Below are positions 9,796-62,031 of a DNA stretch of 64,000 bases, piece by piece; positions within the stretch are counted from its first letter, which is position 1; the number at the start of each line of letters is the position of its first letter. A program made the position numbers and the translations under genes. The notes beneath the pieces are model-generated. The model made no database searches. It had not been told where the DNA came from and saw only the letters and a program-made list of their open reading frames with translations. The stretch is from Bacteroidota bacterium (GTDB lineage: Bacteria > Bacteroidota > Bacteroidia > Bacteroidales > FEN-979): assembly GCA_026391835.1 (NCBI GenBank), contig JAPLDF010000068.1, positions 62,001 through 126,000 of the forward strand, given 5' to 3'.

Positions 9796-9819
9796 TTCTT
9801 TTTTTTGTAAACGTGTATC

Positions 9820-45752: not shown

Positions 45753-48173
45753 ATGAAAAGAGCCATTACATTTCTTACGGCTTTGCTATTGCCATTTCTG
45801 ACAATGGCTGGCGAAGCAAACCTGATAATTCCTGCAGGTATCAGGGATCAGTCTATTCTTTACTGGGGATTTTTGATCACCATTGCGGGCTTTATGTTCG
45901 GGTTGTTTCAATTTCTTAAAGTAAAAAAAATCGGTGCGCATAAATCCATGCTGGATGTTGCACAGGTAATTTTCGAGACGTCGAAGACCTATCTCATACA
46001 GCAGGGAAAATTTTTAGTAATTCTTTTTATTTTCATCGGTTCTGCCGTGGCATTTTATTTCGGATGGCTCTCAGATGCCAGTTTTGGAATCGGTGGGGTA
46101 TTGATGATTTTAGGATGGACGATCATCGGCATCCTTGGCTCATACAGTGTTGCCTGGTTTGGTATCAGGATGAACACCCTGGCAAATGCCCGGATGGCCT
46201 TTGCATCGCTCGAACGGAAACCGATCAAGCTGCTGAATATTCCGCTTAACGCAGGAATGAGCATCGGCGTCGTGCTGATTTCGCTGGAGCTGATCATGAT
46301 GCTCATCATTTTGATGTTTGTTCCCGGGGAGTATGCCGGAGCAAGTTTTATCGGGTTTGCCATTGGCGAATCGCTGGGTGCTTCGGCCTTGAGAATTGCC
46401 GGAGGTATCTTTACCAAAATCGCCGACATCGGCTCCGACCTGATGAAGGTAATCTTCAAGATCGGCGAAGATGACCCGAGAAACCCCGGCACCATTGCCG
46501 ACTGTGTTGGCGACAATGCCGGCGACAGCGTCGGCCCGACGGCCGATGGTTTTGAGACCTACGGCGTAACAGGTGTTGCATTGATTTCGTTTATCGTACT
46601 GGCAGTTGCTGATCCGGCACTCCAGGTTCAGTTGCTGACATGGATTTTTGTGATGCGTATCTTTATGATCATCACTTCCATCGTATCATTCTGGATCAAC
46701 GCCGCCATCAGCAAGGCAAAATACAGCCATGTGGATGACCTTGATTTCGAAAAACCGCTTACATCGCTGGTATGGATCACGTCACTCCTCTCCATTGCCG
46801 TAACGTTTGTGATCAGCTACATGACCATCAGCAATCTTCCCAACGACCTTTGGATCACCTTATCGGTCATCATCAGTGCCGGAACGCTCGGCGCTGCGCT
46901 GATCCCCGAGTTTACAAAACTTTTCACCAGCCCCAAATCGACCCACGTCAACGAAGTGGTTGTTGCTTCGCAGGAGGGTGGTGCTTCACTCAACATCCTT
47001 TCAGGACTTGTTGCCGGCAATTTCAGCGCATTCTGGCAGGGCATGGTTTTTTTCCTGCTCATGTTTGTCGCCTATTTTGCGAGCACATTCGGGCTCAGCA
47101 ACTTTATGATCTACCCGTCCATTTTTGCTTTCGGACTGGTGGCTTTCGGGATGCTGGGCATGGGACCTGTCACCATTGCCGTTGACAGTTACGGCCCTGT
47201 AACCGACAATGCGCAGTCCATCTATGAATTGTCGCTGATCGAAGAGATCCCCGGCATTTCTGCTGAAATTGAACGTGATTTCGGGTTCAAACCGGATTTT
47301 GAAAAATCAAAACATTATCTCGAAGCCAACGACGGCGCAGGAAACACCTTTAAAGCCACCGCCAAACCGGTATTGATCGGAACTGCTGTTGTGGGGGCCA
47401 CCACCATGATCTTTTCGCTGATCCTGGTTATTAAAAAATCGCTGGGCATCGAACCCGAGCAGATCCTAAACCTTCTGAATCCCTATACCATTTTAGGTTT
47501 CCTCCTTGGCGGAGCCGTCATTTACTGGTTCAGCGGCGCATCCATCCAGGCTGTTACCACGGGTGCCAGCCGGGCCGTTGCATACATCAAGGAAAACATC
47601 AACCTTGATCCGAATGCACCTAAAAAAGCGGATACCGCTAAATCAAAAGAGGTCGTCCAGATCTGTACGGTTTATGCCCAGAAGGGCATGCTGAACATCT
47701 TCATCGCCATCTTCTCGTTTGCACTTGCCTTTGCATTTCTTTCTTCGCCAACCGGTTTAACCGAATCGATGACCGGTGAAGAAAAGCTGAGTTATGCATT
47801 GCCTGTCTCACTTTTCGTCAGCTACCTGATCTCCATTGCATTCTTCGGCCTGTACCAGGCGATTTTCATGGCCAATGCCGGCGGAGCCTGGGACAATGCA
47901 AAAAAGGTGATTGAAGTTGACATGAAAGAAAAGGGAACTGAACTTCATGCTGCATCTGTTGTAGGTGATACCGTGGGCGATCCTTTCAAGGATACCTCAT
48001 CGGTGGCCATGAACCCGATCATCAAGTTTACCACCCTGTTCGGGTTGCTGGCAATGGAAATCGCCCTGTCGGTGCATTTCAGGCCAATGGCTCATTATAT
48101 CGGACTTGCATTTTTTGCCGTTGCTTTATATTTCGTTTACCGCTCATTTTACAAAATGCGTATCAGAGACTAA
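45753..48173 (+). CDS. hppA: Membrane-bound ion-translocating pyrophosphatase
   Basis: Integral-membrane pyrophosphatase that couples PPi hydrolysis to H+ and/or Na+ export across the inner membrane. The 806-residue protein has about 16 helices and conserved elements: KIADIGSDLM, EDDPRNPGTIADCVGDNAGD, NAGGAWDNAKKVIE and VGDTVGDPFKDTS. Several otherwise near-invariant stretches differ from the common type: the first signature continues SVGPTADGFETYGVTG instead of the usual GMxADLFxSY form, and VDSYGPVTDNAQSI replaces VDAYGPIxDNAGGI. The K+-site motif reads GNTFKAT with Lys where K+-dependent enzymes have Ala, which points to a K+-independent enzyme. I suspect the divergent Na+-regulated subfamily. 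A terminator follows. Confidence 0.93.
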   Translation: MKRAITFLTALLLPFLTMAGEANLIIPAGIRDQSILYWGFLITIAGFMFGLFQFLKVKKIGAHKSMLDVAQVIFETSKTYLIQQGKFLVILFIFIGSAVAFYFGWLSDASFGIGGVLMILGWTIIGILGSYSVAWFGIRMNTLANARMAFASLERKPIKLLNIPLNAGMSIGVVLISLELIMMLIILMFVPGEYAGASFIGFAIGESLGASALRIAGGIFTKIADIGSDLMKVIFKIGEDDPRNPGTIADCVGDNAGDSVGPTADGFETYGVTGVALISFIVLAVADPALQVQLLTWIFVMRIFMIITSIVSFWINAAISKAKYSHVDDLDFEKPLTSLVWITSLLSIAVTFVISYMTISNLPNDLWITLSVIISAGTLGAALIPEFTKLFTSPKSTHVNEVVVASQEGGASLNILSGLVAGNFSAFWQGMVFFLLMFVAYFASTFGLSNFMIYPSIFAFGLVAFGMLGMGPVTIAVDSYGPVTDNAQSIYELSLIEEIPGISAEIERDFGFKPDFEKSKHYLEANDGAGNTFKATAKPVLIGTAVVGATTMIFSLILVIKKSLGIEPEQILNLLNPYTILGFLLGGAVIYWFSGASIQAVTTGASRAVAYIKENINLDPNAPKKADTAKSKEVVQICTVYAQKGMLNIFIAIFSFALAFAFLSSPTGLTESMTGEEKLSYALPVSLFVSYLISIAFFGLYQAIFMANAGGAWDNAKKVIEVDMKEKGTELHAASVVGDTVGDPFKDTSSVAMNPIIKFTTLFGLLAMEIALSVHFRPMAHYIGLAFFAVALYFVYRSFYKMRIRD

Positions 48174-48232: not shown

Positions 48233-48265
48233 ACAAATGACAAGTGACAAGTGACAAGTGACAAA
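48233..48265 (+). repeat. GTGACAA heptamer repeat after hppA
   Basis: Four to five copies of GTGACAA (first one ATGACAA) follow the hppA terminator directly and end 22 bases before the GGCAACC promoter element of the sigma factor gene. Confidence 0.8.
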
Positions 48266-48286
48266 TAAAAAAACATGGTTTTTCGA

Positions 48287-48312
48287 GGCAACCATTGGGA
48301 ACAGTTGTGTTA
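48287..48312 (+). promoter_or_regulatory. ECF-type promoter element upstream of the sigma factor gene
   Basis: GGCAACC (48287-48293), 14 bases, then TGTTA (48308-48312). The same arrangement is found before three T9SS cargo genes (50304, 55390, 57848). It does not fit TAnnTTTG; a nearby TACCTTTA (48311-48318) is a possible overlapping weak -7 box. The sigma GTG start is 25 bases after the element. Confidence 0.6.
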
Positions 48313-48337
48313 CCTTTATGCAGGATATTGAAAACGC

Positions 48338-48922
48338 GTGGAGGAAGACCTTATCAGAAAAGCAATCGCCAGGGATATCAGCGCCATTGAAGCGTTGTAT
48401 GACCGCCATGCGCCCACACTGCTGAGCGTTTGCTTCCGTTACTGCGGCAACCGCAATGATGCCGAAGACATTCTACATGACGGTTTCATCAAGATCATCC
48501 AGAAGATCCACACCTTTAAAGTAAGATCTGAAGGCAGCCTGGAGGCATGGATGCGGCGGATCATGGTCAATACCGCCCTCAATTTTTTGCGTGACCGCAT
48601 GAAAGAGAAGGCCTTCATCGACATTGCCCCCATCCTTGATAAAATCGACATGCACGATGAGGAGGATGTTGATCCGGAAGCAGTTTACCTGCAGGTTGAA
48701 CGGGAAAAAATCATGGAGATGATCTGTGAGCTGCCCGCCGGGTACCGGACCGTTTTCAACCTTTATGTTTTTGAACAATACGGGCACCGTGAGATCGCAG
48801 AACTGCTCAGGTGTTCCGAAAATACATCCAAGTCACAGCTTTCAAAAGCGCGTGCCCTGTTGAGAAAAAAAATGAATCAACTGGTCAATGTTAAACCATC
48901 ACCGACCTATGAAAAAGTATAA
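48338..48922 (+). CDS. ECF-type RNA polymerase sigma factor
   Basis: A 194-residue extracytoplasmic-function sigma factor with only regions 2 and 4. Region 2: LYDRHAPTLLSVCFRYCGNR, then DAEDILHDGFIKIIQKIHTF and AWMRRIMVNTALNFLRDRM (promoter -10 recognition). Region 4: LPAGYRTVFNLYVFEQYGHR, then EIAELLRCSENTSKSQLSKA (-35 recognition helix-turn-helix). The start is GTG 48338; no in-frame ATG is near. Its 3' end overlaps the start of the next gene by 14 bases, so it is coupled to the predicted anti-sigma. It carries the same upstream element as its presumed targets, suggesting autoregulation. Confidence 0.92.
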   Translation: MEEDLIRKAIARDISAIEALYDRHAPTLLSVCFRYCGNRNDAEDILHDGFIKIIQKIHTFKVRSEGSLEAWMRRIMVNTALNFLRDRMKEKAFIDIAPILDKIDMHDEEDVDPEAVYLQVEREKIMEMICELPAGYRTVFNLYVFEQYGHREIAELLRCSENTSKSQLSKARALLRKKMNQLVNVKPSPTYEKV

Positions 48923-50285
48923 TCATCCGATCGATGATCTCTTCAGTGAGGCCCTGAAGGATCACCAGATGGCACCCCGGGACGAAGCCAAAAAGGCGTT
49001 CCTGCGCGATGTCATACAGGCTGCCCCGGCAGAAAAGAAAGGCAGAAGAGGGCTGATCCTTCTTTCTGTTCTGCTGGCACTGCTGAGCGCAGGAATAGTC
49101 TTGTGGATCAATGCCTCCGATAAAGCCTCCTCCCATCCCCGGGAGAAATCAACCTCCACCCCGCATCAACTGCAGTTCGCCGACAAACAAACCAGCAATG
49201 CAGGTAAAAGCAATACGAATACCTCTGGAAATTCATCCAAAACAAACACCACGACCAATTTTTCCAATAAACAGCCTGTCCGTAGCCAGCCAGGACAGCA
49301 ACCACTTTCAATCGGCATTGCCTCACAATCGCAAAAAACCAGGAACCCCGGCAGGGCAACAAACCATCAAAACCCTCCGAAAGCTGCTCCGGCAGCATCA
49401 CGCCAGCACGAGAACGTTCAGGCACAGGCCCGGGAATCAACTGAAACTTTAACCAATACGGAAACTGCACCGGTGTTGAATGCAGTAAAACCAGATACCG
49501 GTTCGGTTCCCGTGGTTAAGCGGTCAGATTCTGTTGTGAATCCAGCCGTACCTGCCAAACAACATGGCTCTGGCAAGGAAGCAGGGAAACACAGCAACCG
49601 GGTCCCCGAAATCGGGGTTTATTACACACCTGAATGGATGTTCGGTACGCTTGAAGGGACAAAATTCGTGAACAATTTCGGCCTGGAGGGAACCTTCCAT
49701 TTTGGCAGGTTTTCGGTGCGGACCGGGGCCGGTATATCAGTTGCCAAAGGAACCAATGAACTTGTTGTGGCGTACAATGATTTCCTTGGCACCTACAATA
49801 AACTGGACTCCATGAATTTCACCTGGAATGATCCGGCACACAATTATATCCCCACCATGTACACCTCCAAAAAAGATGTCTGGGACAGCCTGATGAAACT
49901 CGAGAATGCCAGGATCGTCAAGCGATACACCTACCTGCAGATCCCCATGATCATGGGGTATGACTTCTGGCAGACAGAACGGGTTTCGGTGGGGGTGCGT
50001 GCAGGACCTATCCTGTCGCTCCTCCTCACATCAAAGCAGTTATCGGCTGCCTATGACCCGGGGAGCAAACGAATTATCAGCATCAATGACATCGCACCCG
50101 AACAGGTCAGCCTTAACTGGCAGGTGATGGCAGGCATCAACACTTCCATTGTCCTGACCCGCAAACTGAAGTTTGAAATTGAACCGGAGGTGAGGTACTA
50201 CTTTAACTCGGTTTATGAAAAACCGGTAAACAATACCAAGCCATGGTCCATCGGTGTGCGTGCAGCATTTGTTGTGGAATTATAA
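48909..50285 (+). CDS. Predicted anti-sigma factor/outer-membrane beta-barrel fusion
   Basis: A 458-residue protein coupled to the sigma gene. The first ~45 residues (MKKYNHPIDDLFSEALKDHQ) are soluble and short, as expected for an anti-sigma peptide; one TM helix follows at about 48-68. Residues about 70-235 form a disordered linker rich in Asn, Gln, Ser, Thr, Pro and Lys. The C-terminal ~220 residues look like an outer-membrane PorT-type/OmpA-like barrel: FGLEGTFHFGRFSVRTGAGI, YLQIPMIMGYDFW, VGVRAGPILSLLLTSKQL, FEIEPEVRYYFNSV, ending AFVVEL. The start is ATG 48909; an ATG at 48888 is earlier but adds no anti-sigma-like residues. The layout implies a protein spanning the envelope. The anti-sigma role is inferred from position. 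Confidence 0.75.
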   Translation: MKKYNHPIDDLFSEALKDHQMAPRDEAKKAFLRDVIQAAPAEKKGRRGLILLSVLLALLSAGIVLWINASDKASSHPREKSTSTPHQLQFADKQTSNAGKSNTNTSGNSSKTNTTTNFSNKQPVRSQPGQQPLSIGIASQSQKTRNPGRATNHQNPPKAAPAASRQHENVQAQARESTETLTNTETAPVLNAVKPDTGSVPVVKRSDSVVNPAVPAKQHGSGKEAGKHSNRVPEIGVYYTPEWMFGTLEGTKFVNNFGLEGTFHFGRFSVRTGAGISVAKGTNELVVAYNDFLGTYNKLDSMNFTWNDPAHNYIPTMYTSKKDVWDSLMKLENARIVKRYTYLQIPMIMGYDFWQTERVSVGVRAGPILSLLLTSKQLSAAYDPGSKRIISINDIAPEQVSLNWQVMAGINTSIVLTRKLKFEIEPEVRYYFNSVYEKPVNNTKPWSIGVRAAFVVEL

Positions 50286-50303
50286 TTTTTTAGCCTTTTT
50301 TTT

Positions 50304-50329
50304 GGCAACCTTTTGAGGCGAACGGGTTA
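50304..50329 (+). promoter_or_regulatory. ECF-type element upstream of the first PKD protein gene
   Basis: GGCAACC (50304-50310), 14 bases, GGTTA (50325-50329). The ATG lies 75 bases after the second box, exactly the distance found at 55411-55486, and the leaders are similar in sequence. Confidence 0.6.
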
Positions 50330-50399
50330 TATTATCACAGAACATCCGGAACCAGGTTCTTAAACATTTACGATTCAATAATATATTAAAACATATCCC

Positions 50400-53171
50400 A
50401 TGAAAAAGTTACTCCTCCCGTTTTTGTTCCTTCTGCTGGTGCTGCCCGCAATGTCGCAGGGAATCGTTAACATTACCGGAACCGTAACTGATACGGCGAC
50501 CGGCAATCCCATCCCGAACCATGCCGTTACCATCACCAACGATTCCACTTCGGTATGGTTTTATAACCACATCGTTTATACAGACAACAGCGGCGTATAC
50601 CGGGATACGGTTGTGACGGCAGCTCCGGGCGGAAGCCCGGGTGTGCTGTTTGTACGCACAATCGATTGCCAGAACTACCAGCACCAGGCCGTATTGAATT
50701 ATAATCCTGCAAATTTCAACTTCACTGCCAATTTCTCCATTTGCTATTCAAATATTCCCTGCTCTGCAAATTTCACGACCCTGCAACAGCAATCACTCAC
50801 TCTTCAGTTTACCGATGCTTCTATAGGCGGCGGCACATCACACGCATGGATGTTCGGAGACGGCGCAACCTCGGGGGAGATGAACCCGGTGCATACCTAC
50901 GGCATGCCTGGTTATTACACGGTTTCCCTGACCATCGGGGCCCTGGGAACAACCTGTTACAATACGATCACGAAACCAGTATATGTCTGGGATTCGACTG
51001 CGGGAAGCTGTCATGCTGATTTTCAGGTAGTTGCCGGTGTAAACACCACGTATATCTTTTATGATCAGTCGGGCGGCAATATCATGTACTGGGAATGGAA
51101 TTTTGATGATCCGGCGAGCGGATCAAACAACGTTTCCACGTTGCAAAATTCCTCACACGCCTATACGCATACAGGTACCTACACACCATGCCTGACGGTT
51201 CGCGGCGCCGACAGCACCTGTTTTGATATCAATTGCAAACCGGTGGTTGTCGGGTCAGCTACCCCGGTATACCTCTGCCTCAGCGGCACCGTAATAAACC
51301 AGGTCACCAGCCTGCCGATGCCCAACCATGCCGTGACCTGGAACTTTGTCGACACCTTGTACGGCCCCCGTACGGTTTTTACGAACAGCAACGGCGTATA
51401 CGCAGACTCAGTGATGCTTCCGCCGGGTATAAACAGCGGAACTTATTATGCATGGACACAGGATTGCGAGCTGTTCGCACAATTCACATCAACCTTTAAC
51501 GCCCCGTTCTTACACCCTGTCCAAAATTTTAACCTCAGTTGTGAAACGATCCTTCCCTGCCAGGCTAAAATGAAGGTCTCAGCGGCCGGCATTCTGACTG
51601 CCCGGTTTGAAGATAAATCAACAGGTGGTGTCAGCTCAAGAACCTGGGATTTTGGCGACGGCTTTACCTCCACCTTAGAGAACCCGGTCCACACATACAG
51701 TTCGCAGGGTGATTTCCTGGTGACGCTTTCCACGGTCAACAACATCACCGGGTGTACCAGTACCAAATTAAAAAGTATCACTTTTGCCGATTCACTGCTC
51801 TGCAACGCCAGTTTCACTTTTTCAAACACCCAGAATCCCAGGACAATCCAATTCCAGGATCAGTCCAGCGGGGCAAATGGCGTCCGCACGTGGTCTTTTG
51901 GGGACGGGGATCTGTCTACCCTGGCCAACCCGCAGCATACTTACCGGTATCCCGGGTTATACATGGTGACACTATCAGTCGGAAATTACACCTTAACCTG
52001 CTGGACGGCTGCTTCCGCAGCTGTGCTCATCACCGATTCGATTGTCCCGTGCCAGTCGAACTTCACCTATATTACCAGTCCTGCCACCGGCCCGAAGATG
52101 GTTCAATTCACCGACCTTTCAACCGGCAACCCTTCACAATGGCAATGGGATTTCGGCGACGGCGACTCATCTGTACAACGCTACCCGATCCATTCCTATG
52201 CTGCCCCAGGCACCTATCATGTTTGCCTGGCCATTGCCGGTGATTATTGCACCAGCACTTTTTGCCAGGACCTGGTCATCCAGGACAGCCTTGTTTTCCA
52301 CCAGGTTTACGGACAGGTATTTTCAGGCAACTTCCCGCTTTCTGCCGGCCTTGCCATGATCATTTCCATGGATACCACCGGCACCTACCAGCCATTTGTA
52401 GATGTTTTCCCGGTCGATTCCAACGGCGTCTATTATTTCACCATGGTTCCGAACGGGAGCTATTACATCCTGGCCACCCCTTCCGATTCAACAGGATACC
52501 TGCCAACCTACTACGGAAATTCGATCAACTGGCAGCAAGCCACGCTCCTGACATTCGGAACTCCAAGCAATCCATACAATATCAGCCTTGCACAGTCGGA
52601 CCAGGTACCTTCCGGCCCCGGGTCAGCCTCCGGGCAGATCAACCTGGGCAAGGTGAACAACTCGCTCACCGACAAGATCAACATGCTGCTGCTGAATGCG
52701 CAGGCCATACCGATCGGGTTTACCCCGGTTTCCGCTTCAGGTGCGTTCAGTTTCCCTGCCATGGCCTATGGCACCTATTACCTGCATGCTGAAATGCCCG
52801 GAATTACGAGCGACGATGTCATGATAACCATCACCCCTGAAAAACCACATGCGGATGTTGTGATGACATTTACCGGGAACAGGATTATTGGCATCGGTGA
52901 AGAGGCAAACCCGGTGAACCACTGGTCCGCATACCCGAATCCCGTCGCTGACCGGCTTTCAATAAACATCGACCTGAAACATGCTTCAATGGCCGAGATT
53001 GGGATTTATAATGTTACCGGTAAAATGGTCTCGGGCATGCAGGCACCGCTGAATGCCGGGCCCAACAGCATCGGGATATCAACTGCCGGCCTGCCACAGG
53101 GGGTCTATGCGCTGCGCATCTCTTCCCGCGATGGATTACTGCTTACCACCAAACTGGTCAAGACCAGGTAA
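50400..53171 (+). CDS. Multi-PKD-domain T9SS cargo protein (923 aa)
   Basis: A large secreted surface protein, probably an adhesin or matrix component. Signal peptide (about 1-19), a carboxypeptidase regulatory-like beta-sandwich (22-105), PKD1 (about 118-197) and PKD2 (203-287), a second regulatory-like domain (291-380) that repeats the first, then PKD3 (385-460), PKD4 (463-540) and PKD5 (545-625), recognised by FGDG motifs and NPVHTY-like segments. A module of about 210 residues (632-840, beginning HQVYGQVFSGNFPL) shared with two other proteins here precedes the T9SS type A sorting domain (about 848-923, YPNPVADRL ... LPQGVYALRI). No catalytic motif is seen. Confidence 0.88.
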   Translation: MKKLLLPFLFLLLVLPAMSQGIVNITGTVTDTATGNPIPNHAVTITNDSTSVWFYNHIVYTDNSGVYRDTVVTAAPGGSPGVLFVRTIDCQNYQHQAVLNYNPANFNFTANFSICYSNIPCSANFTTLQQQSLTLQFTDASIGGGTSHAWMFGDGATSGEMNPVHTYGMPGYYTVSLTIGALGTTCYNTITKPVYVWDSTAGSCHADFQVVAGVNTTYIFYDQSGGNIMYWEWNFDDPASGSNNVSTLQNSSHAYTHTGTYTPCLTVRGADSTCFDINCKPVVVGSATPVYLCLSGTVINQVTSLPMPNHAVTWNFVDTLYGPRTVFTNSNGVYADSVMLPPGINSGTYYAWTQDCELFAQFTSTFNAPFLHPVQNFNLSCETILPCQAKMKVSAAGILTARFEDKSTGGVSSRTWDFGDGFTSTLENPVHTYSSQGDFLVTLSTVNNITGCTSTKLKSITFADSLLCNASFTFSNTQNPRTIQFQDQSSGANGVRTWSFGDGDLSTLANPQHTYRYPGLYMVTLSVGNYTLTCWTAASAAVLITDSIVPCQSNFTYITSPATGPKMVQFTDLSTGNPSQWQWDFGDGDSSVQRYPIHSYAAPGTYHVCLAIAGDYCTSTFCQDLVIQDSLVFHQVYGQVFSGNFPLSAGLAMIISMDTTGTYQPFVDVFPVDSNGVYYFTMVPNGSYYILATPSDSTGYLPTYYGNSINWQQATLLTFGTPSNPYNISLAQSDQVPSGPGSASGQINLGKVNNSLTDKINMLLLNAQAIPIGFTPVSASGAFSFPAMAYGTYYLHAEMPGITSDDVMITITPEKPHADVVMTFTGNRIIGIGEEANPVNHWSAYPNPVADRLSINIDLKHASMAEIGIYNVTGKMVSGMQAPLNAGPNSIGISTAGLPQGVYALRISSRDGLLLTTKLVKTR

Positions 53172-53240
53172 ATTCAAAAAATACGAGGTTTATATCCGAC
53201 AGTCATAAAAACCATTATTTAAAATAAAGGAGGCCGTTAT

Positions 53241-55358
53241 ATGAAAAAAAATGTATCAGCTTTAAACACCGTTCTTGGAATTATTCTGCTGACAATCACC
53301 TGTTTTCCGTCATTCTCCCAGACAGGCACCCTCCGGGCCATGAACGACACCATTGATCTGTACCCGGGAATTCCGCAGGTTTACGATATCCTGGCCAACG
53401 ATACCATTCCTGCGGGAGATACCATCAGATTGGTTAATTTAACCACGGGAAATTACATATCCTGCCAGAAAATCCACGACTCAAACTGGAAATGGACATT
53501 TACCTTTAATGTTCCCCAATGGGGAAGCGGCGGTGAAGTCCAGGGTTCATACAGGATCTTTACCCTGTCGATGGATACCAGTTCTGCAAAAATCCTGTTC
53601 AGGATCCACGACAAAAGCTTTGGTTATCTCGAAATCAACAATGTGAGGGCAAGATTTTGTGCATCCGGCCCCCATTTCTTTTTCGATTCTTCCCAGTATG
53701 AAGTTCCCAAAGGGAGCGGCAAGACATCCATATTTTCAAATTCATTGTGGATCGGGGGGAAAGACGGCCAGGGGCAGCTTCATTTTGCCGGCGAACGGTA
53801 TCGCCAGGGACCTCTGCCAGGGCCTGCCGGGACACATCCTGACTGGTATGCCGGTCCGGTGATGGATTCAGCAAAATACTCGGTTTATATGGATACATTG
53901 TGGAATTACGTGTGGAACCTGAAGAAGAGCGACATCGACTTTCACAAGGCCCATTTCTCCGATCCGGGATATACCCCAATTCATGATATCGTGTCATGGC
54001 CGGGCAACGGCAATACAGCAGCAGGCCAGTCGCTTATCCTTGCCCCCTTTTATGATGTAAACGGAGATCAGACCTACGATCCGTTCTCCGGCGACTACCC
54101 GATAATAAGGGGAGACCAGGCCTTGTTCTTCATTTTCAACGATGACCGGGGGCCCCACCTTGAATCGGAAGGGGCCAAACTCAGGGTTGAGGTTCATGGA
54201 ATGGCTTACGCCTTTGACATGCCCGAAGATTCGGCCATGAAGAATACGGTATTTTTAAACTACAAGCTCTTCAATCGTTCTCAAAACACCTATGACAGCG
54301 CGATGCTGGGCAATTTCACAGATATTGACCTGGGGTACCCGAATGACGATTACATTGGCTGCGATGTTGAACGGAACATGTATTTCGGATACAACGGAAC
54401 ACCAATAGATGGCACCGGTCAGCCTTACGCCTACGGTGAAAATCCTCCCGTTCAGTCGGTTACTTTGCTTGCCGGGCCTTACATGAATCCTGACGGAGCC
54501 GACAATCCACGTTTCAGCAATACCGGGGCACAGTTGTGCGATTTCAGTGTCAACGGGTTAAACTTCGGCGATACCATTGTTGACAATGAGCGTTACGGAT
54601 TGCAGGGATTCATGTACTTCAACAACGGAGTCTCCGGGGTTCCGGCCTATATGACCGATCCGGCCTATGCAGCGGATTATTACCAGATGCTTTGCGGGAA
54701 ATGGAGAGACGGTACAACCATGATGTACGGCGGAAACGGTCATGCCGGGACAGGAGCATACGGACCTGCCTGCCGGTTTATGTTCCCGGGAGAATCAGAC
54801 ACCCTGAACTGGGGAGTTGGCTGTACGCCTCCCAACGGACCGGTAAACTGGACGGAGGAGACCGCGATGAACAATCCACAGGACCGCAGGGGACTGGGTT
54901 CTACCGGGCCTTTCACCTTCAAACCCGGGGATGTGCAGGAGCTGGACATTGCCTTCTCATGGGCCAGGGATTATGGCGGCCGGTCGCCTTTAAGTTCGCT
55001 TGCCAAGCTGCGGCTGCTGACCGATCAAATCAACAAGGCTTTTACCACGAACAAGTTGTCAAACGGCAACCAGTTCTATGGGATCGGTGACCCCGGGCAT
55101 TCTTCGGACCTGCTGGTGAACGTTTATCCAAATCCGGCCGCAGATCATGTCAATATTGAATTTGCAAAGTCAAATCCGCCGGCTGACATAACCATCGATC
55201 TGCTTACAAGCCAGGGGAATTCCATCCAAAGGATCAGCCTTGCTGAATGCCGGAACCCGGTCCGCTTCGATATTTTCCGGCTCCCTTCAGGTTTTTATTA
55301 TATCAAGGTAACCACGAAGGAATCCATGACAGTTAAAAAACTGGTTATCATGCACTGA
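53241..55358 (+). CDS. T9SS type A sorting domain surface protein (705 aa)
   Basis: A secreted protein with a signal peptide (about 1-26) and a T9SS type A sorting domain at the C terminus (about 627-705; VYPNPAADHVNIEF, then LPSGFYYIKV and a basic KKLVIMH end). The ~600-residue middle matches no enzyme family I know but is a recurring Bacteroidota T9SS type with phrases such as DVNGDQTYDPFSGDYPIIRG, RGDQALFFIFND and MLGNFTDIDLGYPNDDYIGC, resembling acidic, calcium-loop-rich beta-domains. It starts after AAGGAGG, an unusually strong Shine-Dalgarno sequence for this phylum. It lacks the GGCAACC element and is probably cotranscribed with the preceding gene (70-base gap). Confidence 0.85.
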   Translation: MKKNVSALNTVLGIILLTITCFPSFSQTGTLRAMNDTIDLYPGIPQVYDILANDTIPAGDTIRLVNLTTGNYISCQKIHDSNWKWTFTFNVPQWGSGGEVQGSYRIFTLSMDTSSAKILFRIHDKSFGYLEINNVRARFCASGPHFFFDSSQYEVPKGSGKTSIFSNSLWIGGKDGQGQLHFAGERYRQGPLPGPAGTHPDWYAGPVMDSAKYSVYMDTLWNYVWNLKKSDIDFHKAHFSDPGYTPIHDIVSWPGNGNTAAGQSLILAPFYDVNGDQTYDPFSGDYPIIRGDQALFFIFNDDRGPHLESEGAKLRVEVHGMAYAFDMPEDSAMKNTVFLNYKLFNRSQNTYDSAMLGNFTDIDLGYPNDDYIGCDVERNMYFGYNGTPIDGTGQPYAYGENPPVQSVTLLAGPYMNPDGADNPRFSNTGAQLCDFSVNGLNFGDTIVDNERYGLQGFMYFNNGVSGVPAYMTDPAYAADYYQMLCGKWRDGTTMMYGGNGHAGTGAYGPACRFMFPGESDTLNWGVGCTPPNGPVNWTEETAMNNPQDRRGLGSTGPFTFKPGDVQELDIAFSWARDYGGRSPLSSLAKLRLLTDQINKAFTTNKLSNGNQFYGIGDPGHSSDLLVNVYPNPAADHVNIEFAKSNPPADITIDLLTSQGNSIQRISLAECRNPVRFDIFRLPSGFYYIKVTTKESMTVKKLVIMH

Positions 55359-55389
55359 ACTCATTAATCGCATTTTTCGCGTATCTTTG

Positions 55390-55415
55390 AGCAACCATTT
55401 GAAATAATCGTGTTA
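55390..55415 (+). promoter_or_regulatory. ECF-type element upstream of the second PKD protein gene
   Basis: AGCAACC (55390-55396), 14 bases, TGTTA (55411-55415), 75 bases before the ATG. The leader contains GAACCAGGTTC, also present in the same place in the leader of the 50400 gene, so promoter and leader were duplicated with the gene. Confidence 0.6.
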
Positions 55416-55485
55416 TTACATCATAGACTTCTGAACCAGGTTCAATAAAATTCACATATTCATCAATCATAAACCGACAATTATC

Positions 55486-57729
55486 ATGAAAAAGCTACTT
55501 CTACAGATTTTGTTCCTGATGCTGATGCTGCCTGCCATTTCGCAGAACTATGCATCCATCACCGGCACTGTTACCGATATTTCAACAGGTAACCCTATTC
55601 CCAACCAGGCTGTGACCATTTCAAGCGACTCCTCCGCCGGCTGGTTCTATTACCAGACCGTATATACCAACAACAGCGGCTTTTATATTGATACAGTTCC
55701 CGTTCCGCCCAGCGTCCAGGGAGTCCTGTTTGTGCGTACCATCGACTGCCAGAACTATATGCACCAGGTGGTGCTGACCCTGGCGCCCCCGGTACTCAAC
55801 TTCACTGCTGATTTCATAATCTGCTATAACAGCAACCCCTGCCAGGCAAACTTCACTTCCCAGCAACAGCAGCCACTCACAGTTCAGTTCATGGATGCTT
55901 CTGTTGGTGGCGGGACCACAAGGCAATGGATGTTCGGCGACGGTGCGAACTCCAGCCAGATGAACCCGGTACACGCGTACGGCATGCCAGGTTATTACAA
56001 TGTGACGCTCACTATCGGAGCCCTTGGAACCACCTGTTACCAGGTCACCACACAAACAATATATGTGTGGGATTCGGTCAGCCCTGGCTGCCATGCAGCC
56101 TTTATGATCATCCCCGACAGCATGAACACGTTGAATACATACCATTTTTTCAACCAGTCAACCGGAAACATCTCGACCTATATATGGTCTTTTGGGGATG
56201 GTTCTTCGCAGACAGTTACCCTTCCCGGCAACCCGAATGTAATCCATACCTATGCACAGGCGGGAATCTACAATGCCTGCTTAAGCATTCAGTCGGCCGA
56301 CAGCAGTTGTTTCGATGTGACCTGTGATACCCTGGTGGTTGGCACACCGCCGGCCTGTCATGCCGCTTTTACCTACTACACAGATTCAGTCAATACCAGC
56401 AATACTATCCACTTCATTGACCTTTCGGCCGGGAATAATTTAACATGGAACTGGAACTTTGGCGACGGCACCTATTCAACGTTGCAAAACCCTGTTCATA
56501 CTTATACCACACCCGGTTACTTTGTTGTTGAGCTCAGCATTGCCAGCCAGAATCCATCCTGTTCCGATGTGGTCAGCGGAGCCATTTATATCGGATCCGG
56601 CCCCGGATGCCAGGCACATTTTTCCTACAGCATTGATCCCGTCGTCGGAAATCATACTGTTAATTTCACCGACCAGTCAACCGGAAATCCGACAACCTGG
56701 CTTTGGAGTTTCGGCGACGGGTCTGCCGGTAATGTACAGAATCCTACCCATGCGTACAATGCCCCCGGCAACTATGCGGTATGCCTCACCATTACAGGCG
56801 ACAGTTGCACCAGCACTTTCTGCAGTGATGTGGTAATCATTGACAGTGTGACCAGCCACCAGGTCTATGGATTCGTTTCGGAAGGCAATATTCCGCTTGC
56901 CCTGGGAATGGCCATGATCTTCTCGGTTGATACCAGTGCCAACTACCAGCCTTATGTTGCTGTATGCCCCATCGATTCGGCAGGAATGTACTATTTCTCA
57001 CTGGTTCCTGATGGAAACTATTATATTATGGCGATTCCTTTTGATTCAAACAACTACCTTCCAACTTATTACGGCAACACCATCAACTGGGAACAGGCTA
57101 CGGTCATTGCCCTGGGAACAGCAAACAACCCTTACAACATCAACCTGGTTCAATCAGACCAGATGACACCGGGACCAGGTTCTGCCGGCGGCCAGATCAG
57201 CATGACCGGGCTGAAAACCTCCATGATGGATAAGATCAACATGATCCTGATGAATGAGCAGGGCAAGCCGATCGGGTTTACCAAAGTTTCATCATCCGGG
57301 GTATTCAGTTTCCCGTCGATGGCATATGGCACCTATTACCTACACCCTGAGATGCCGGGCATTTCGGGCGACCAGGTCAAGATCACCCTTTCTCCAGCCA
57401 TACCTCATGCCGATGTGATCATGACCTTTAACGGTAACAGGATCATGGGAACCACAGATAAAGTTGCCCTCGCAAACCGCTGGGCAGTTTACCCAAATCC
57501 AGTAAGCGACAAACTCACGGTAACCATCGACATGAAGCAGGGAACCAGGGCCGAAGCCGGCATCACCGATATGAAAGGCCAGGTGGTCGTGAATGTGCAG
57601 GTATCATTGAATGCGGGAGCCAACAGCGTTGAAATAAACACAACCGCACTGCCATCCGGGATCTACTCCCTGCGGATTTACTCCGCCGAAGGCGTGATCC
57701 TCACAACCAAACTGGTAAAAACCAGGTAA
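55486..57729 (+). CDS. Multi-PKD-domain T9SS cargo protein (747 aa), paralogue of the 923-aa protein
   Basis: Same architecture as the 50400 product but shorter: signal peptide (1-19), regulatory-like domain (22-105), four PKD domains (about 117-460, each with an FGDG core), the shared C-terminal module (about 462-675), and a T9SS type A sorting domain (about 678-747; YPNPVSDKLTVTI, LPSGIYSLRI). It lacks the second regulatory-like domain and one PKD repeat, so one gene is either an expansion or a contraction of the other. The N termini (KKLLL...LP...SQ, TGNPIPN) align closely. It is followed by a strong terminator. Confidence 0.88.
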   Translation: MKKLLLQILFLMLMLPAISQNYASITGTVTDISTGNPIPNQAVTISSDSSAGWFYYQTVYTNNSGFYIDTVPVPPSVQGVLFVRTIDCQNYMHQVVLTLAPPVLNFTADFIICYNSNPCQANFTSQQQQPLTVQFMDASVGGGTTRQWMFGDGANSSQMNPVHAYGMPGYYNVTLTIGALGTTCYQVTTQTIYVWDSVSPGCHAAFMIIPDSMNTLNTYHFFNQSTGNISTYIWSFGDGSSQTVTLPGNPNVIHTYAQAGIYNACLSIQSADSSCFDVTCDTLVVGTPPACHAAFTYYTDSVNTSNTIHFIDLSAGNNLTWNWNFGDGTYSTLQNPVHTYTTPGYFVVELSIASQNPSCSDVVSGAIYIGSGPGCQAHFSYSIDPVVGNHTVNFTDQSTGNPTTWLWSFGDGSAGNVQNPTHAYNAPGNYAVCLTITGDSCTSTFCSDVVIIDSVTSHQVYGFVSEGNIPLALGMAMIFSVDTSANYQPYVAVCPIDSAGMYYFSLVPDGNYYIMAIPFDSNNYLPTYYGNTINWEQATVIALGTANNPYNINLVQSDQMTPGPGSAGGQISMTGLKTSMMDKINMILMNEQGKPIGFTKVSSSGVFSFPSMAYGTYYLHPEMPGISGDQVKITLSPAIPHADVIMTFNGNRIMGTTDKVALANRWAVYPNPVSDKLTVTIDMKQGTRAEAGITDMKGQVVVNVQVSLNAGANSVEINTTALPSGIYSLRIYSAEGVILTTKLVKTR

Positions 57730-57749
57730 CTTCATCCTGAATTATGCAA

Positions 57750-57785
57750 TAAAAACGCCGTTCCCTGCCGGGAACGGCGTTTTTA
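57750..57785 (+). terminator. Rho-independent terminator after the 747-aa PKD protein
   Basis: A perfect 15-bp stem (57751-57765 with 57770-57784, AAAAACGCCGTTCCC) and a four-base loop, with the T run inside and after the right arm. It can work in both directions. Confidence 0.9.
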
Positions 57786-57847
57786 TTGTTATTTTTATCC
57801 GTTCAGGCTTGAATTTGGGCTTTCGGTTGAAAAATTGAGCATTTTGA

Positions 57848-57875
57848 GGCAACCTTCTGAGCCGCAGCGTGTCTA
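57848..57875 (+). promoter_or_regulatory. ECF-type element upstream of the 1365-aa protein gene
   Basis: GGCAACC (57848-57854), 15 bases, TGTCTA (57870-57875). This is the least exact of the four at its second box and has one base more in the spacer. It lies about 58 bases before the ATG at 57934. Confidence 0.5.
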
Positions 57876-57933
57876 ATTCATGAAACTTCATCATATCTCC
57901 CGTTCCCTTTTTACTCCCTTCAATATCAAACGT

Positions 57934-60900
57934 ATGAAAAAAACTTTACAACGCTTCAGCTTATGGGGAATTGTTCTCCTGGTTGCATTGGCAACAGCCC
58001 GCCAGGGAGCTGGCCAGACAGTTCTCCTGACCGAAAACTGGGAAACCGCCCCAATAGGTCAAACCCCTCCGCCGGGATGGGGTGTCGACCTTGTATCAGG
58101 CGCCAATTACACCTATTTCCTCCAGGCCGGCACGTTCCCGACAAGCTATCCGTTTAATGGCAGCAGGATGGTTGAATTCAGGTCGTTTAATGGTCTGCCC
58201 GGAGTATCCAACCGCCTCAAACGGACGACCCCTGTTTCCACGACAGGATTTGCTGCTGTTTCAGTTGATTTTGAGTGGTATACGAGCACAGGCTACCCTG
58301 GAATCGACGACAATGTAGCCGTTCAGTGGTCAACCAACGGAACCACCTGGACAACCGCTGCCACCTTTCAACGGTCTGCAAACTTAACCATCTGGCAGTA
58401 TGAGGTGGTAACATTGCCTGCAATCGCGGCCAATCAACCTGCACTATATGTTGCGCTCCTATTCACTTCAGGTTATGGAGACAACTGTCACCTCGACCTG
58501 TTAAACATCACCGGGTATGCAACGCTTCCTTCCCCACCGGCCGTTGCAACACTGGCACCATCGTGGGTCGGGTCAAAAAATGCTTACCTTGCCGGCACCG
58601 TGAATGCTAACGGAAATCCCACAAATGCATCCTTTCAGTTCGGCCTGACAACCTCCTACGGAACCACCCTTTCGGCCGGAACGATCACGGGAAATACCTT
58701 GTCCTACATCAACGGGAATGCTTACCCGCTGATCCCCGGGCACCTGTATCATTACAGGGCTGTTGGCACCAATGCCGGCGGAACCACATACGGAAATGAT
58801 GTGACATTCACCACGAATGACACCTTACCAGAGGTGTTTACTTACCAGGCCACCGATGTCACCTCCACATCGGCCACCCTGAACGGGATGGTATATCCCA
58901 ACGGTTCCGCAACTGCCGTCACCTTTGATTATGGCCTTACCGAGAGTTATGGCTCAACGGTTACCGCCAATCCTGCAACCGTTTCGGGTGATTCCACCCA
59001 CACACATGCCAGTGCGCTCCTCACGGGGCTGCCCCCCGGAACCTCTTACCACTACCGGATTAAAGGCGTGAATGCCGCCGGGGCCGGGTACGGGATAGAC
59101 ACAGTATTTACAACCAATGGCGTCCTGCCCCCCACCGTGGTTACAACACATGCCACTGCCATCACATCAACCTCGGCAATGCTGAATGGCAATGTGAATG
59201 CAAATGGAACGCCGACGAATGTTACATTTCAATACGGGCTGACCCCGGCTTACGGATCAACCGTTACATTCGGAATGGTATATGGAAACTTTTCAAACCT
59301 GGTAAACCATGCCATCACGGGACTGACCCCGGGAACCTTGTATCATTTCAGGGCTGTTGGCGAAAATGCCAACGGCACCACCTACGGAAACGACAGTGTG
59401 TTTACAACCACCATCATTTTGCCGCCGACTGTCACCACCAACCCATCACCACTTACCGGTGCAACCTACTCCATTCTTTCAGGGACATTTAATGCCAACG
59501 GGAACCAGGCGACCGCCTCCTTCGAATACGGTCTAACAACCTCCTACGGGCTGGAGGTCCAGGCAGGTTATGTTTCAGGAAACACACCCTCCACGCGTGA
59601 AATTGCCAGCTATTTCCTGCTTCCCAGCCATGTTTACCACTACAGGGCCAGGGGAACCAATGCAGGCGGCACTACCTATGGAAATGACGTAACATTCACT
59701 ACTGCAGATACCTTACCGGCAGTATTCACCTACCACGCCACAAACATCGGCCTGACGACAGCCACACTGAACGGGAGGGTGTACCCCATGGGTTCCACGA
59801 CGGCCATCACGTTTGAATATGGTCACACAACAAGCTATGGTTCAACCATCACTGCAAGCCCGGCCACCATCCCGGGTGATTCCGTAACCACATGGGCGAG
59901 TGCAGCATTATCGGGGCTGACCATGAATACCTTGTATCATTTCAGGATCAAGGGCGTGAATGCCACCGGTTCCTCGTACGGACTGGACTCCGTGTTTACC
60001 ACAGCCGGCACGCTGCCGCCTATAGTGATCACCACCCATGCAACTTCCATCACCACCTCGGGGGCGACATTGAATGGGAGCGTCAATGCCAACGGAACTG
60101 ATGCTACCGTTTCTTTTCAATATGGGTTGACGCCTTCATACGGATCGACCGTGGCCTATGGTACAGTTTCAGGAAACAGCATGACCCCGGTCAGCGCGAC
60201 AGTTAACGGGCTGGCACCATCCACCTTGTACCATTACAGGACGGTGGGGGTAAATGCCAATGGCACTGCATTTGGAAACGACACCACCTTCATCACTTCA
60301 CCACCTGCTGCGATGCCCCCATCTGTCTACACCCAGGGAGCAGATTCAGTGACTTCAACCAAAGCAACCCTGAACGCGCACGTCAATGCCAACGGGTATC
60401 TGACAACAGTAACCTTTGAATATGGTTTGACACTTTCCTACGGGAACACTGTCACATACGGAACCGTCGCAGGGAATAATTACGTATATGTAAGCAAACC
60501 CATCGCAGGATTAAGTCCTGCCACACTGTATCATTTCAGGGTAGCCGGAACGAATTTATATGGAACAACCTACGGGGCTGATGTTACTTTCACAACATCC
60601 CCTGCAGGAACAATTCTTCCGACTGTCATAACCACGGCGGCCACAGATTATTCTGCCAGCAGTGCTGTACTCCACGGGTATGCCAACGCAAACAATTCTG
60701 CAACCCATATCTTATTCGAATATGGGTTGACTTCAGCCTACGGATCATCTGTTTCGTATGGCATGGTATACGGAAATACCATGAACCCGGTCATGTACCA
60801 GGTAATGAACCTGTTGCCGGCCTCTGAATATCACTACCGGATTGTTGGTACCAATGACATTGGAACATCATATGGCCGTGATACCACATTTACAACAAAC

Positions 60901-62031
60901 GACAGCATCTCCTGCGATGCTGCGATGACCTATGAAAGTTCAGGACCATTCACAATCCAGTTCCATGATGTTTCGACAGGGGGAGGGCACATATGTTACT
61001 GGCACTTTGGTGACGGGGTATTTTCACAGGATCCAAACCCGGTGCATACCTATGCCGCTGCAGGAGAATATGGAATTTACCTGCGCATCGAAGGCTACGC
61101 CCCTTATTATTGCTACGATTCGACGATACAGTTCATTACGGTATCCGGTTCGCCGTACCACCATATTTATGGACAGGTCTTCGCCGACGGCGTGCCAATT
61201 CCCACCGGCATTGTGAACCTCTTTTCCGTCGATACGATTCCCCCTTATAATCCCTATATGGACATCACCGCCATTGATTCCAACGGGATGTACAATTTCG
61301 ACATGATCCCCGACGGAGATTATTACGTGGAAGCCATGCCTGTCAACGTGCCGGGATATATGCCGACCTTCTACGGTGATGAGCTCTTCTGGGAAGATGC
61401 AACCATCATCCACCTCGGAGCACCGGCCAATCCGTATGACATCAACCTGGTCGCCGGAGCCCCCTCGATGCCCGGGAATGGGTCCATCAACGGGCAGATC
61501 AACACCACCGGGTTGAAAACCAGCTATGTCGATCAAATCACGATGCTGCTGCTGAACGCAAACGGGCGTGCCATTTTCTACGACCGTGTGGAATCCGCTG
61601 GCGCTTTTTCATTTGCGTCACTGGCTTTTGGAACATATTATCTTAAAGCAGAAATGGCCGGGATCCGGAGTGAACTGATCAAAGTGGTCATCTCAGAGGC
61701 AAACCCGGATCCGAATGTCATCCTTACCTTTACGGGGAACAGTATTTCCGGGATAAAGAATAATTCCTCCGGAACCATCTCTCTGGCAGTTTACCCGAAT
61801 CCAGTGACCGATCATGTTTCGGTCAGCATCAGCATGACGCAGGAAGTCCGGGTTACCGCCCAGATCCTTGACCTTGCCGGTCGGGTGCTTTCAGGCAATA
61901 CATTCGTTTTACACAACGGAGCCAACCTGTTTTCTCTTTCAACATCCCTTTTACCGGCCGGGGTCTACACCCTGCGGGTATTTTCACCGGAAGGGTTTGA
62001 CACGCATAACAGACTGGTCAAAACCCGGTAG
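57934..62031 (+). CDS. Giant FnIII-like repeat T9SS cargo protein (1365 aa)
   Basis: Signal peptide (FSLWGIVLLVALATARQGAG), an N-terminal cleaved-adhesin/MAM-like beta domain (about residues 25-185; LLTENWETAPIGQTPPPGWG), then eight fibronectin III-like repeats of about 100 residues (about 195-985) with the signature [TS]ATLNGxVxxNG, FxYGLTxSYGS, YHYRxxGxNxxGTTYGxDxxFTT. A PKD domain (about 988-1065), the C-terminal module shared with the two PKD proteins (1070-1285) and a T9SS type A sorting domain (about 1290-1365) follow. I start at ATG 57934, which opens the signal peptide, instead of 57880. It is a likely cell-surface adhesin; no enzymatic motif was seen. Confidence 0.88.
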   Translation: MKKTLQRFSLWGIVLLVALATARQGAGQTVLLTENWETAPIGQTPPPGWGVDLVSGANYTYFLQAGTFPTSYPFNGSRMVEFRSFNGLPGVSNRLKRTTPVSTTGFAAVSVDFEWYTSTGYPGIDDNVAVQWSTNGTTWTTAATFQRSANLTIWQYEVVTLPAIAANQPALYVALLFTSGYGDNCHLDLLNITGYATLPSPPAVATLAPSWVGSKNAYLAGTVNANGNPTNASFQFGLTTSYGTTLSAGTITGNTLSYINGNAYPLIPGHLYHYRAVGTNAGGTTYGNDVTFTTNDTLPEVFTYQATDVTSTSATLNGMVYPNGSATAVTFDYGLTESYGSTVTANPATVSGDSTHTHASALLTGLPPGTSYHYRIKGVNAAGAGYGIDTVFTTNGVLPPTVVTTHATAITSTSAMLNGNVNANGTPTNVTFQYGLTPAYGSTVTFGMVYGNFSNLVNHAITGLTPGTLYHFRAVGENANGTTYGNDSVFTTTIILPPTVTTNPSPLTGATYSILSGTFNANGNQATASFEYGLTTSYGLEVQAGYVSGNTPSTREIASYFLLPSHVYHYRARGTNAGGTTYGNDVTFTTADTLPAVFTYHATNIGLTTATLNGRVYPMGSTTAITFEYGHTTSYGSTITASPATIPGDSVTTWASAALSGLTMNTLYHFRIKGVNATGSSYGLDSVFTTAGTLPPIVITTHATSITTSGATLNGSVNANGTDATVSFQYGLTPSYGSTVAYGTVSGNSMTPVSATVNGLAPSTLYHYRTVGVNANGTAFGNDTTFITSPPAAMPPSVYTQGADSVTSTKATLNAHVNANGYLTTVTFEYGLTLSYGNTVTYGTVAGNNYVYVSKPIAGLSPATLYHFRVAGTNLYGTTYGADVTFTTSPAGTILPTVITTAATDYSASSAVLHGYANANNSATHILFEYGLTSAYGSSVSYGMVYGNTMNPVMYQVMNLLPASEYHYRIVGTNDIGTSYGRDTTFTTNDSISCDAAMTYESSGPFTIQFHDVSTGGGHICYWHFGDGVFSQDPNPVHTYAAAGEYGIYLRIEGYAPYYCYDSTIQFITVSGSPYHHIYGQVFADGVPIPTGIVNLFSVDTIPPYNPYMDITAIDSNGMYNFDMIPDGDYYVEAMPVNVPGYMPTFYGDELFWEDATIIHLGAPANPYDINLVAGAPSMPGNGSINGQINTTGLKTSYVDQITMLLLNANGRAIFYDRVESAGAFSFASLAFGTYYLKAEMAGIRSELIKVVISEANPDPNVILTFTGNSISGIKNNSSGTISLAVYPNPVTDHVSVSISMTQEVRVTAQILDLAGRVLSGNTFVLHNGANLFSLSTSLLPAGVYTLRVFSPEGFDTHNRLVKTR
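58549..60900 (+). repeat. Eight tandem FnIII-like coding repeats with a three-repeat block duplication
   Basis: Repeats begin near 58549, 58831, 59134, 59428, 59719, 60021, 60322 and 60621 (period about 280-303 bases). Repeats 1, 2 and 3 resemble repeats 4, 5 and 6 respectively more than their neighbours, judged by features peculiar to each: repeats 1/4 carry GTNAGGTTYGNDVTFTT, 2/5 carry VYP and RIKGVNA, 3/6 carry VTTHAT or ITTHAT. Confidence 0.8.

Follow-up and report, generated by a model that had tools for sequence, protein, structure and literature searches.

A near-private ECF-type promoter element that appears to link a sigma factor gene with adjacent type IX secretion cargo genes in a Bacteroidota genome

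Introduction

What switches on a single adhesin of the type IX secretion system (T9SS)? Hardly anything is known about this, despite the at least 150 T9SS cargoes in the genome studied here alone. The question is raised by a locus in the window, that is, the 64,000 nucleotides of contig JAPLDF010000068.1 (positions 62,001 to 126,000, assembly GCA_026391835.1, a member of the Bacteroidales) that were analysed. In this locus a plus-strand gene cluster encodes an H+-pyrophosphatase, an extracytoplasmic function (ECF) sigma factor, a protein of 465 amino acids (aa) and then four proteins with a T9SS sorting domain, of 923, 705, 747 and 1365 aa. A two-box element stands upstream of the sigma gene (element 1) and of the genes for the 923-, 747- and 1365-aa proteins (elements 2, 3 and 4), and the 705-aa gene has none; the four elements occupy three gaps around the cluster and one gap within it.

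Our reading, to which we give a probability of about 0.77, is that the four elements serve as promoters for the ECF sigma factor encoded at 48338-48922, which would be held by an anti-sigma factor of the Dma kind and would drive its own operon together with the adhesins. What was obtained here is the element, its conservation, its near-restriction to the locus, a predicted protein architecture and a recurring trio of genes. A near-private sigma factor, a promoter sequence, a probable trans-envelope anti-sigma factor and the cargo can thus be read together in one place, and the trio recurs in other Bacteroidota.

The promoter element and the genes of the locus

The consensus of the element is AGGCAACC-WTY-N10-GKGTTA, an ECF-type promoter. 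The main features of the locus are given below, with scores of a position weight matrix (PWM) described after the list.

48287-48312, plus strand: element 1, ECF-type candidate promoter of the sigma gene, GGCAACC, 14 bp, TGTTA (PWM 30.4, the top of the window)
48338-48922, plus strand: ECF sigma factor, 194 aa, GTG start (Pfam Sigma70_r2, 5e-18; Sigma70_r4_2, 1.7e-15)
48909-50285, plus strand: Dma-like putative anti-sigma factor, 458 aa from MKKYN (AlphaFold2, Foldseek, 18-sequence alignment)
50304-50329, plus strand: element 2, ECF-type candidate promoter of the 923-aa cargo gene, GGCAACC, 14 bp, GGTTA (PWM 22.8)
50349-50359, plus strand: palindrome GAACCAGGTTC in the leader of cargo 1
50400-53171, plus strand: T9SS cargo 1, 923 aa, with PKD domains, a 208-aa module (residues 634-841) and a C-terminal sorting domain (Pfam PKD_4, Por_Secre_tail)
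53241-55358, plus strand: T9SS protein of 705 aa, with neither element nor module (Por_Secre_tail, 6.5e-13)
55390-55415, plus strand: element 3, ECF-type candidate promoter of the 747-aa cargo gene, AGCAACC, 14 bp, TGTTA (PWM 22.5)
55433-55443, plus strand: second copy of the palindrome GAACCAGGTTC, in the leader of cargo 2
55486-57729, plus strand: T9SS cargo 2, 747 aa, with the module, a paralogue of cargo 1 (Pfam; 55% identical in alignment)
57746-57789, plus strand: terminator-like hairpin of 20 pairs with a T run, between cargo 2 and element 4
57848-57875, plus strand: element 4, ECF-type candidate promoter with 15-bp spacing, GGCAACC, 15 bp, TGTCTA (PWM 17.9)
57934-62031, plus strand: T9SS cargo 3, 1365 aa, with fn3-like repeats, PKD, the module and a C-terminal sorting domain (Pfam)

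The 194-aa sigma factor has only regions sigma2 and sigma4 (Pfam, above cut-off), as is characteristic of the ECF class, and also lies above the NCBIfam cut-off for the sigma70-ECF superfamily. The type A sorting domain of the T9SS (Por_Secre_tail) is above cut-off in the 923-, 705-, 747- and 1383-aa open reading frames (ORFs). For the last gene the start at 57934 (1365 aa) was retained, as in the sequence-only reading of this DNA that preceded our analysis, because the ORF start at 57880 lies only 4 bases past the second box of element 4.

That reading had described the four elements, and all of them were recovered verbatim at the positions listed above. The four elements in the window are more than chance. 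The informative positions extend beyond the motif as first described, to W-T-Y, which follows the first box, and to G-K, which precedes GTT. A two-box PWM was trained on the sigma-gene promoters of relatives, with the cargo promoters excluded and the own genome left out, and it placed the four elements at ranks 1 to 4 in the window (30.4, 22.8, 22.5 and 17.9, the next position scoring 13.9). The ranking persisted when the matrix was built only from 12 sigma promoters of other genera (28.7, 22.6, 22.0 and 17.9; next position, 16.0). In 60 dinucleotide shuffles of the window the mean number of sites scoring at least 17.8 was 0.13, and two such sites never occurred in one shuffle. In addition, a sequence-only covariance model of 30 sigma promoters, the own one included, returned the four elements at the top of 22 matches on both strands of the window, and a lax regular expression gave a single extra match on the plus strand (49593, inside the 465-aa ORF) and none on the minus strand.

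Conservation among near relatives

Relatives of the sigma factor were found in 57 of 61 genomes, and the 30 best loci were fetched. The element, in the form GGCAAC[C/T]-W-T-Y, 14 bp, KGTT, is present 5' of the sigma gene in all 30, with a spacing of 15 bp at one locus (L039) and of 14 bp at the other 29. In the 21 loci with longer flanks (the own locus and 20 relatives) the gene order is constant, and in every one of them another element stands in the gap behind the 465-aa gene. The gene after this gap carries a T9SS sorting domain in 19 of the 21 cases, and in the other two it runs into the contig edge.

The boxes are conserved and their surroundings are not. Among 29 sigma promoters the mean pairwise identity was 0.89 for the -35 box, 0.33 for the spacer, 0.89 for the -10 box, 0.30 for the upstream flank and 0.39 downstream; the 21 cargo promoters gave 0.81, 0.30, 0.85, 0.34 and 0.44, respectively, and both rows were aligned on the motif match, which biases them in favour of the boxes. 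We infer that this sigma factor reads the elements. The proposal of the sequence-only reading, that the sigma factor drives itself and a local surface-protein regulon, is thus supported by 30 of 30 sigma loci and 21 of 21 first-cargo loci, and transcription of the adhesins under control of the sigma factor is a computational claim that these sequence comparisons support.

It could be argued that the repeats are not promoters but bind a conventional regulator, or that they were left over from the duplication of cargo genes. Cargoes 1 and 2 are indeed paralogous, and their leader DNA, including the palindrome, is in common. However, the repeats consist of two boxes at a fixed spacing with a diverged spacer in between, they also occur 5' of the unrelated sigma gene, and they lie 25 to 70 bp from the start codons. 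Furthermore, their first box is of the AAC type, which is typical of ECF promoters generally. We consider this explanation highly improbable.

The protein between the sigma factor and the cargo

If the elements are promoters of this sigma factor, it should be asked what holds the sigma factor back. The sequence-only reading overlooked two components of the locus, the intervening gene for a putative anti-sigma factor and the module shared by the cargoes. The intervening gene adjoins and overlaps the sigma gene; its product can be read as a 465-aa ORF from 48888 or, as listed above, from MKKYN. An AlphaFold2 model based on 18 relatives (m517e7e143ced) predicts two short helices (residues 10-16 and 25-36), a transmembrane helix (46-69), a disordered stretch (72-228) and a beta-barrel (233-458). 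The helix at 46-69 is hydrophobic and is predicted to be a single inner-membrane helix. The tether at 72-228 has a predicted local distance difference test (pLDDT) score below 50, and it is unaligned and variable in length among the 18 relatives. The C-terminal strands are predicted to form an OmpA-like barrel, for which Foldseek returned OmpA, NspA, Ail and OmpX. This layout is the one described for Dma proteins (PMC13088901). Pfam OMP_b-brl_2 scored 18.1 of the 27 bits required, hence below cut-off, and 40.1 bits, above cut-off, in a paralogue on contig C5 of the same genome. The N-terminal segment contains conserved D9, P23 and F31 in the alignment and matched no family.

The protein appears to span both membranes, according to the model. 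From its architecture and gene order we infer that it is an anti-sigma factor inhibiting the adjacent sigma factor. Its N-terminal cytoplasmic segment would hold the sigma factor, and the inner-membrane helix, the disordered periplasmic tether and the outer-membrane barrel would link the envelope to it. A presumed signal event at the outer membrane would free the sigma factor, which would then raise its own operon through element 1 and the adjacent T9SS-exported PKD adhesins through elements 2 to 4.

The recurring trio

Is this arrangement peculiar to the near relatives? A scan of named genomes was carried out, and the best 80 loci were considered, 73 of which have at least two genes after the sigma gene. 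A trio of sigma factor, barrel protein and T9SS cargo was found at 39 of these 73 testable loci, 8 of the 39 being near relatives already counted. The third gene of the trio has a sorting domain or the module in all 39 and the module in 38, and, apart from L216 and L220, every trio has a middle gene that matches the anti-sigma profile. The idea that all distant relatives of the sigma factor belong to trios was rejected, since 34 of the 73 loci, among them loci of Hymenobacter, Rufibacter and Flavobacteriales, lie outside.

Among the best 80 loci, GGCAAC occurs within 150 bp 5' of the sigma gene in 64 of 77 relatives, and the second box varies. The first box can therefore serve as a promoter signature for a large clade of sigma factors, most of them from uncultured bacteria, and it makes the question of what proteins of the Dma type sense directly testable.

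Of the 31 distant trios, 14 have a gap of at least 30 bp before the cargo gene and 17 a shorter one; a second element was recognised in 9 of the former and in 1 of the latter (Fisher p 0.0012). These sequences suggest that compact operons need one promoter and that spaced ones tend to have two. Such a dependence on the gap is expected if the cargo stays under the same sigma factor, either by read-through or by a promoter of its own. In the window, the terminator-like scan listed no site in the interval between the 923- and 705-aa genes, and the 705-aa gene is probably read through from element 2.

Contig C5 of the own genome bears a second trio, of the compact kind, behind which lie one more sigma gene and a gene for a 192-aa protein. 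The promoter of the C5 sigma gene carries AGGCAACTTAATTTCCTGATTTACGTCTG, which is conserved between the own genome (G000) and that of a relative (G003).

Occurrence in the genome and weighing of the evidence

A scan of the whole genome had been suggested to judge the motif. The bare motif GGCAACC-N14..16-GTTA was not enriched in the own genome (14 matches, compared with 10 for the reversed pattern), nor was its GTCTA form (3 and 2, respectively), so the extended motif was used instead, and this one is confined mainly to the locus. With a looser motif, 48 matches were found in the own genome (control, 9), 40 inside ORFs as called by a simple longest-ORF procedure and 8 outside, 4 of the latter in the window. 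Two of the 4 intergenic matches beyond the window have no downstream gene in the stretch examined; the remaining two stand before a gene with a C-terminal domain (CTD; PWM 6.5) and before a PKD gene of more than 2800 aa (PWM 11.2). The scored intergenic matches outside the window range from 5.2 to 11.2. Por_Secre_tail matches number at least 150 in the genome (342 candidates, of which 150 were scored), and with only those 4 intergenic matches the expected enrichment before other T9SS cargo genes failed to appear. Nor were the many scattered copies unlinked to genes, which would have spoken against the proposal, seen for the extended motif.

The strict pattern, GGCAACYWTYN10GKGTTW, gave 33 matches in 19 congeneric genomes, 30 at the locus and 3 inside ORFs (reversed control, 0). 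The element is present in all 17 congeners whose sigma ortholog is at least 57% identical and in neither of the two in which the best match reaches 40-44%, one of these two genomes being only 81% complete. When 149 genomes were drawn evenly from the order, strict matches occurred in 6 of them only (reversed control, 2). Eight lie outside the own genome: 4 directly 5' of a sigma/anti-sigma pair, 2 intragenic, and 2 just 3' of module cargoes, 4 kb from the sigma site. Because the strict matches cluster at the sigma/cargo locus across genomes, the candidate regulon corresponds to the locus, with T9SS cargo at large outside it. The sequence evidence supports a near-private module and does not support a general regulator of T9SS cargo.

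The last two matches of the draw (L288 in G169 and L289 in G056) deserve a separate mention. There, the module cargo is followed by a full element and then by what looks like a structured stretch and a small ORF of doubtful status. The idea that the element drives a known RNA was set aside, as no Rfam match was obtained; it may drive an undescribed small RNA or gene.

Several observations weigh against our reading, beginning with the lack of enrichment of the bare motif. The PWM score alone does not distinguish the elements genome-wide, for an intragenic position on contig C73 scores 24.4, and an intragenic match of 17.8 is found in a relative (G013). A covariance-model search of the whole genome, with 150 of 2739 candidates scored, gave 9 matches with elements 1 and 3 at the top; elements 2 and 4 were missing and the other 7 matches lie inside ORFs. 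We rejected this search as a census because of the fraction of candidates scored and the two missed elements. What separates the four elements from other matches is intergenic position and conservation. In one relative (G001), cargoes 2 and 3 have no element of their own, and 5 of the 14 distant trios with a long gap have no recognisable second element. The model of the Dma-like protein has low full-length confidence (mean pLDDT 57.1, predicted TM-score 0.40; N-terminal helices about 53-63, barrel blocks mostly 55-90), which is due to the long disordered tether. Finally, TATCTTTG at 55382-55389, a match to the housekeeping TAnnTTTG box, abuts element 3 on its 5' side, so that this promoter could be dual, and the C5 sigma promoter shares the first box, AGGCAAC, with a different -10 (CGTCTG instead of GKGTTA). 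The trios without a second element, the G001 cargoes, the housekeeping-type box and the C5 paralogue are the reasons why our confidence is held at the value given above.

The C5 paralogue leads to the possibility that the elements, though ECF promoters, serve a different ECF sigma factor of the genome, either exclusively or in addition to the one in the window. The own genome gave 21 first-look sigma matches, 3 of them at E <= 1e-20, cross-recognition is possible given the conserved AGGCAAC -35 within AGGCAACTTAATTTCCTGATTTACGTCTG, and overlapping ECF regulons have been suggested for Flavobacterium psychrophilum (PMC9723704). The -10 boxes differ, however, and in the 19 congeners the element tracks the ortholog of the sigma factor in the window and not the paralogue, which makes this explanation rather unlikely.

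Another possibility is that only element 1 matters, in which case elements 2 to 4 would be weak and transcription of the cargo would rely on read-through or on housekeeping promoters. Many distant relatives do have a compact trio with no second element, and the housekeeping-type box next to element 3 would fit as well. But the second element is kept in 21 of 21 near-relative loci, and between element 4 and the preceding gene stands a strong hairpin (the terminator-like scan as a whole found 17 sites, compared with 15.3 in shuffles). This we regard as improbable.

The module shared by the cargoes

The cargoes of 923, 747 and 1365 aa have in common about 208 aa just before the sorting domain, and a search for this module in the 705-aa protein gave no match. 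The module was modelled with a pLDDT of 89.3 as two prealbumin-like sandwiches resembling those of Gram-positive pilins and of SdrD/CnaB domains. In the whole genome it gave 11 matches at E <= 0.001, five of them below 1e-40: the three cargoes of the window, the cargo of the C5 trio and one orphan with neither sigma gene nor element. The orphan (L281, contig C86, about 231,700-233,800) is a 677-aa protein with the module (E 1.8e-52) and a sorting domain. This protein led us to reject the module as an invariant mark of element-bearing genes.

Seventh in rank (E 2e-10), and matching the module in its first half only, is the 192-aa protein of contig C5 mentioned above:

about C5:186869-187447, reverse strand: 192-aa protein (L267), beside the second sigma gene

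It has an anti-sigma-like N-terminus and a transmembrane-like segment, followed by the first half of the module. A gene similar to this one is present in the relative G003 (L268).

These results allow a conjecture, doubtful as it is, of a closed loop in which the adhesin module docks on the anti-sigma barrel, so that the T9SS adhesin would itself be the sensed signal. It is suggested by the first half of the module, which forms the periplasmic part of the anti-sigma-like protein encoded beside the second trio, and by the presence of the module in 38 of 39 trio cargoes and in all three element-bearing cargoes of the window, not in the element-less one. If it were true, the cell would count the adhesin on display, or sense matter bound to it, by means of one polypeptide that connects the outer membrane with the sigma factor in the cytoplasm.

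Comparison with known systems

In signalling of the FecI/FecR type, a signal at the outer membrane is passed to an ECF sigma factor that drives surface proteins, and the receptor, which is TonB-dependent, and the anti-sigma factor are separate proteins. Here, unlike in FecI/FecR, a single polypeptide is predicted to bear both the receptor-like barrel and the anti-sigma parts.

The closest system is that of the dual membrane-spanning anti-sigma factors Dma/Das of Bacteroides thetaiotaomicron, with NigD1, vesiculation and polysaccharide utilization loci as outputs (PMC13088901). As in our locus, the sigma gene lies beside a gene whose product has a transmembrane helix, a disordered tether and a C-terminal barrel, preceded by an N-terminal anti-sigma part that is putative in our case (PMC13088901); the sigma factors adjacent to Dma proteins belong to the ECF21 family. 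Unlike in that system, the conserved neighbour and apparent target here is a T9SS adhesin, and the word "motif" is absent from the main text of that paper (PMC13088901).

Promoters of the ECF type have also been described in F. psychrophilum, where those of the SM6 group, with a CGT -10, stand 5' of an ECF/anti-sigma pair and of T9SS genes (PMC9723704). In our locus elements 3 and 4 read CGTGT in the -10 region, and elements 1 and 2 read otherwise. The SM6 genes listed there include those of T9SS machinery (GldN, PorU) and scattered others (PMC9723704), whereas the element described here is near-private and precedes cargo. SigP/PorXY of Porphyromonas gingivalis is likewise an ECF sigma factor tied to the T9SS, with the differences that SigP is under two-component control, acts on T9SS components and has a different proposed promoter motif, which is A-rich (PMC4800418, PMC7712824). 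The proposed SigP motif is C(T)AAA(G/C/T)A(T)A(C)T(A/G)A; by eye, no scan having been run, GGCAACC-N14-KGTTA bears no resemblance to it (PMC4800418).

Dma/ECF surface signalling and ECF promoters near T9SS genes are thus known already (PMC13088901, PMC9723704, PMC4800418). For the T9SS-adhesin output, the promoter, the trio and the module no earlier report was found in a literature search that did not include the 2024 Dma1 paper and the 2021 ECF re-classification.

Other features of the window

The palindrome GAACCAGGTTC lies about 20 nt past the second box in the leaders of both cargo 1 and cargo 2. With flanking NNWWA it occurs genome-wide at these two sites only (control, 0), and the exact 11-mer is present in the loci of 5 of 20 relatives (G002, G017, G014, G009 and G016). 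Tandem GACAAGT repeats were observed immediately 5' of element 1. Together with these repeats, two further features of the window can be listed:

45753-48173, plus strand: H+-pyrophosphatase
48236-48266: tandem GACAAGT repeats
9401-9799: RNase P RNA, class A (Rfam RF00010, E 1.9e-75)

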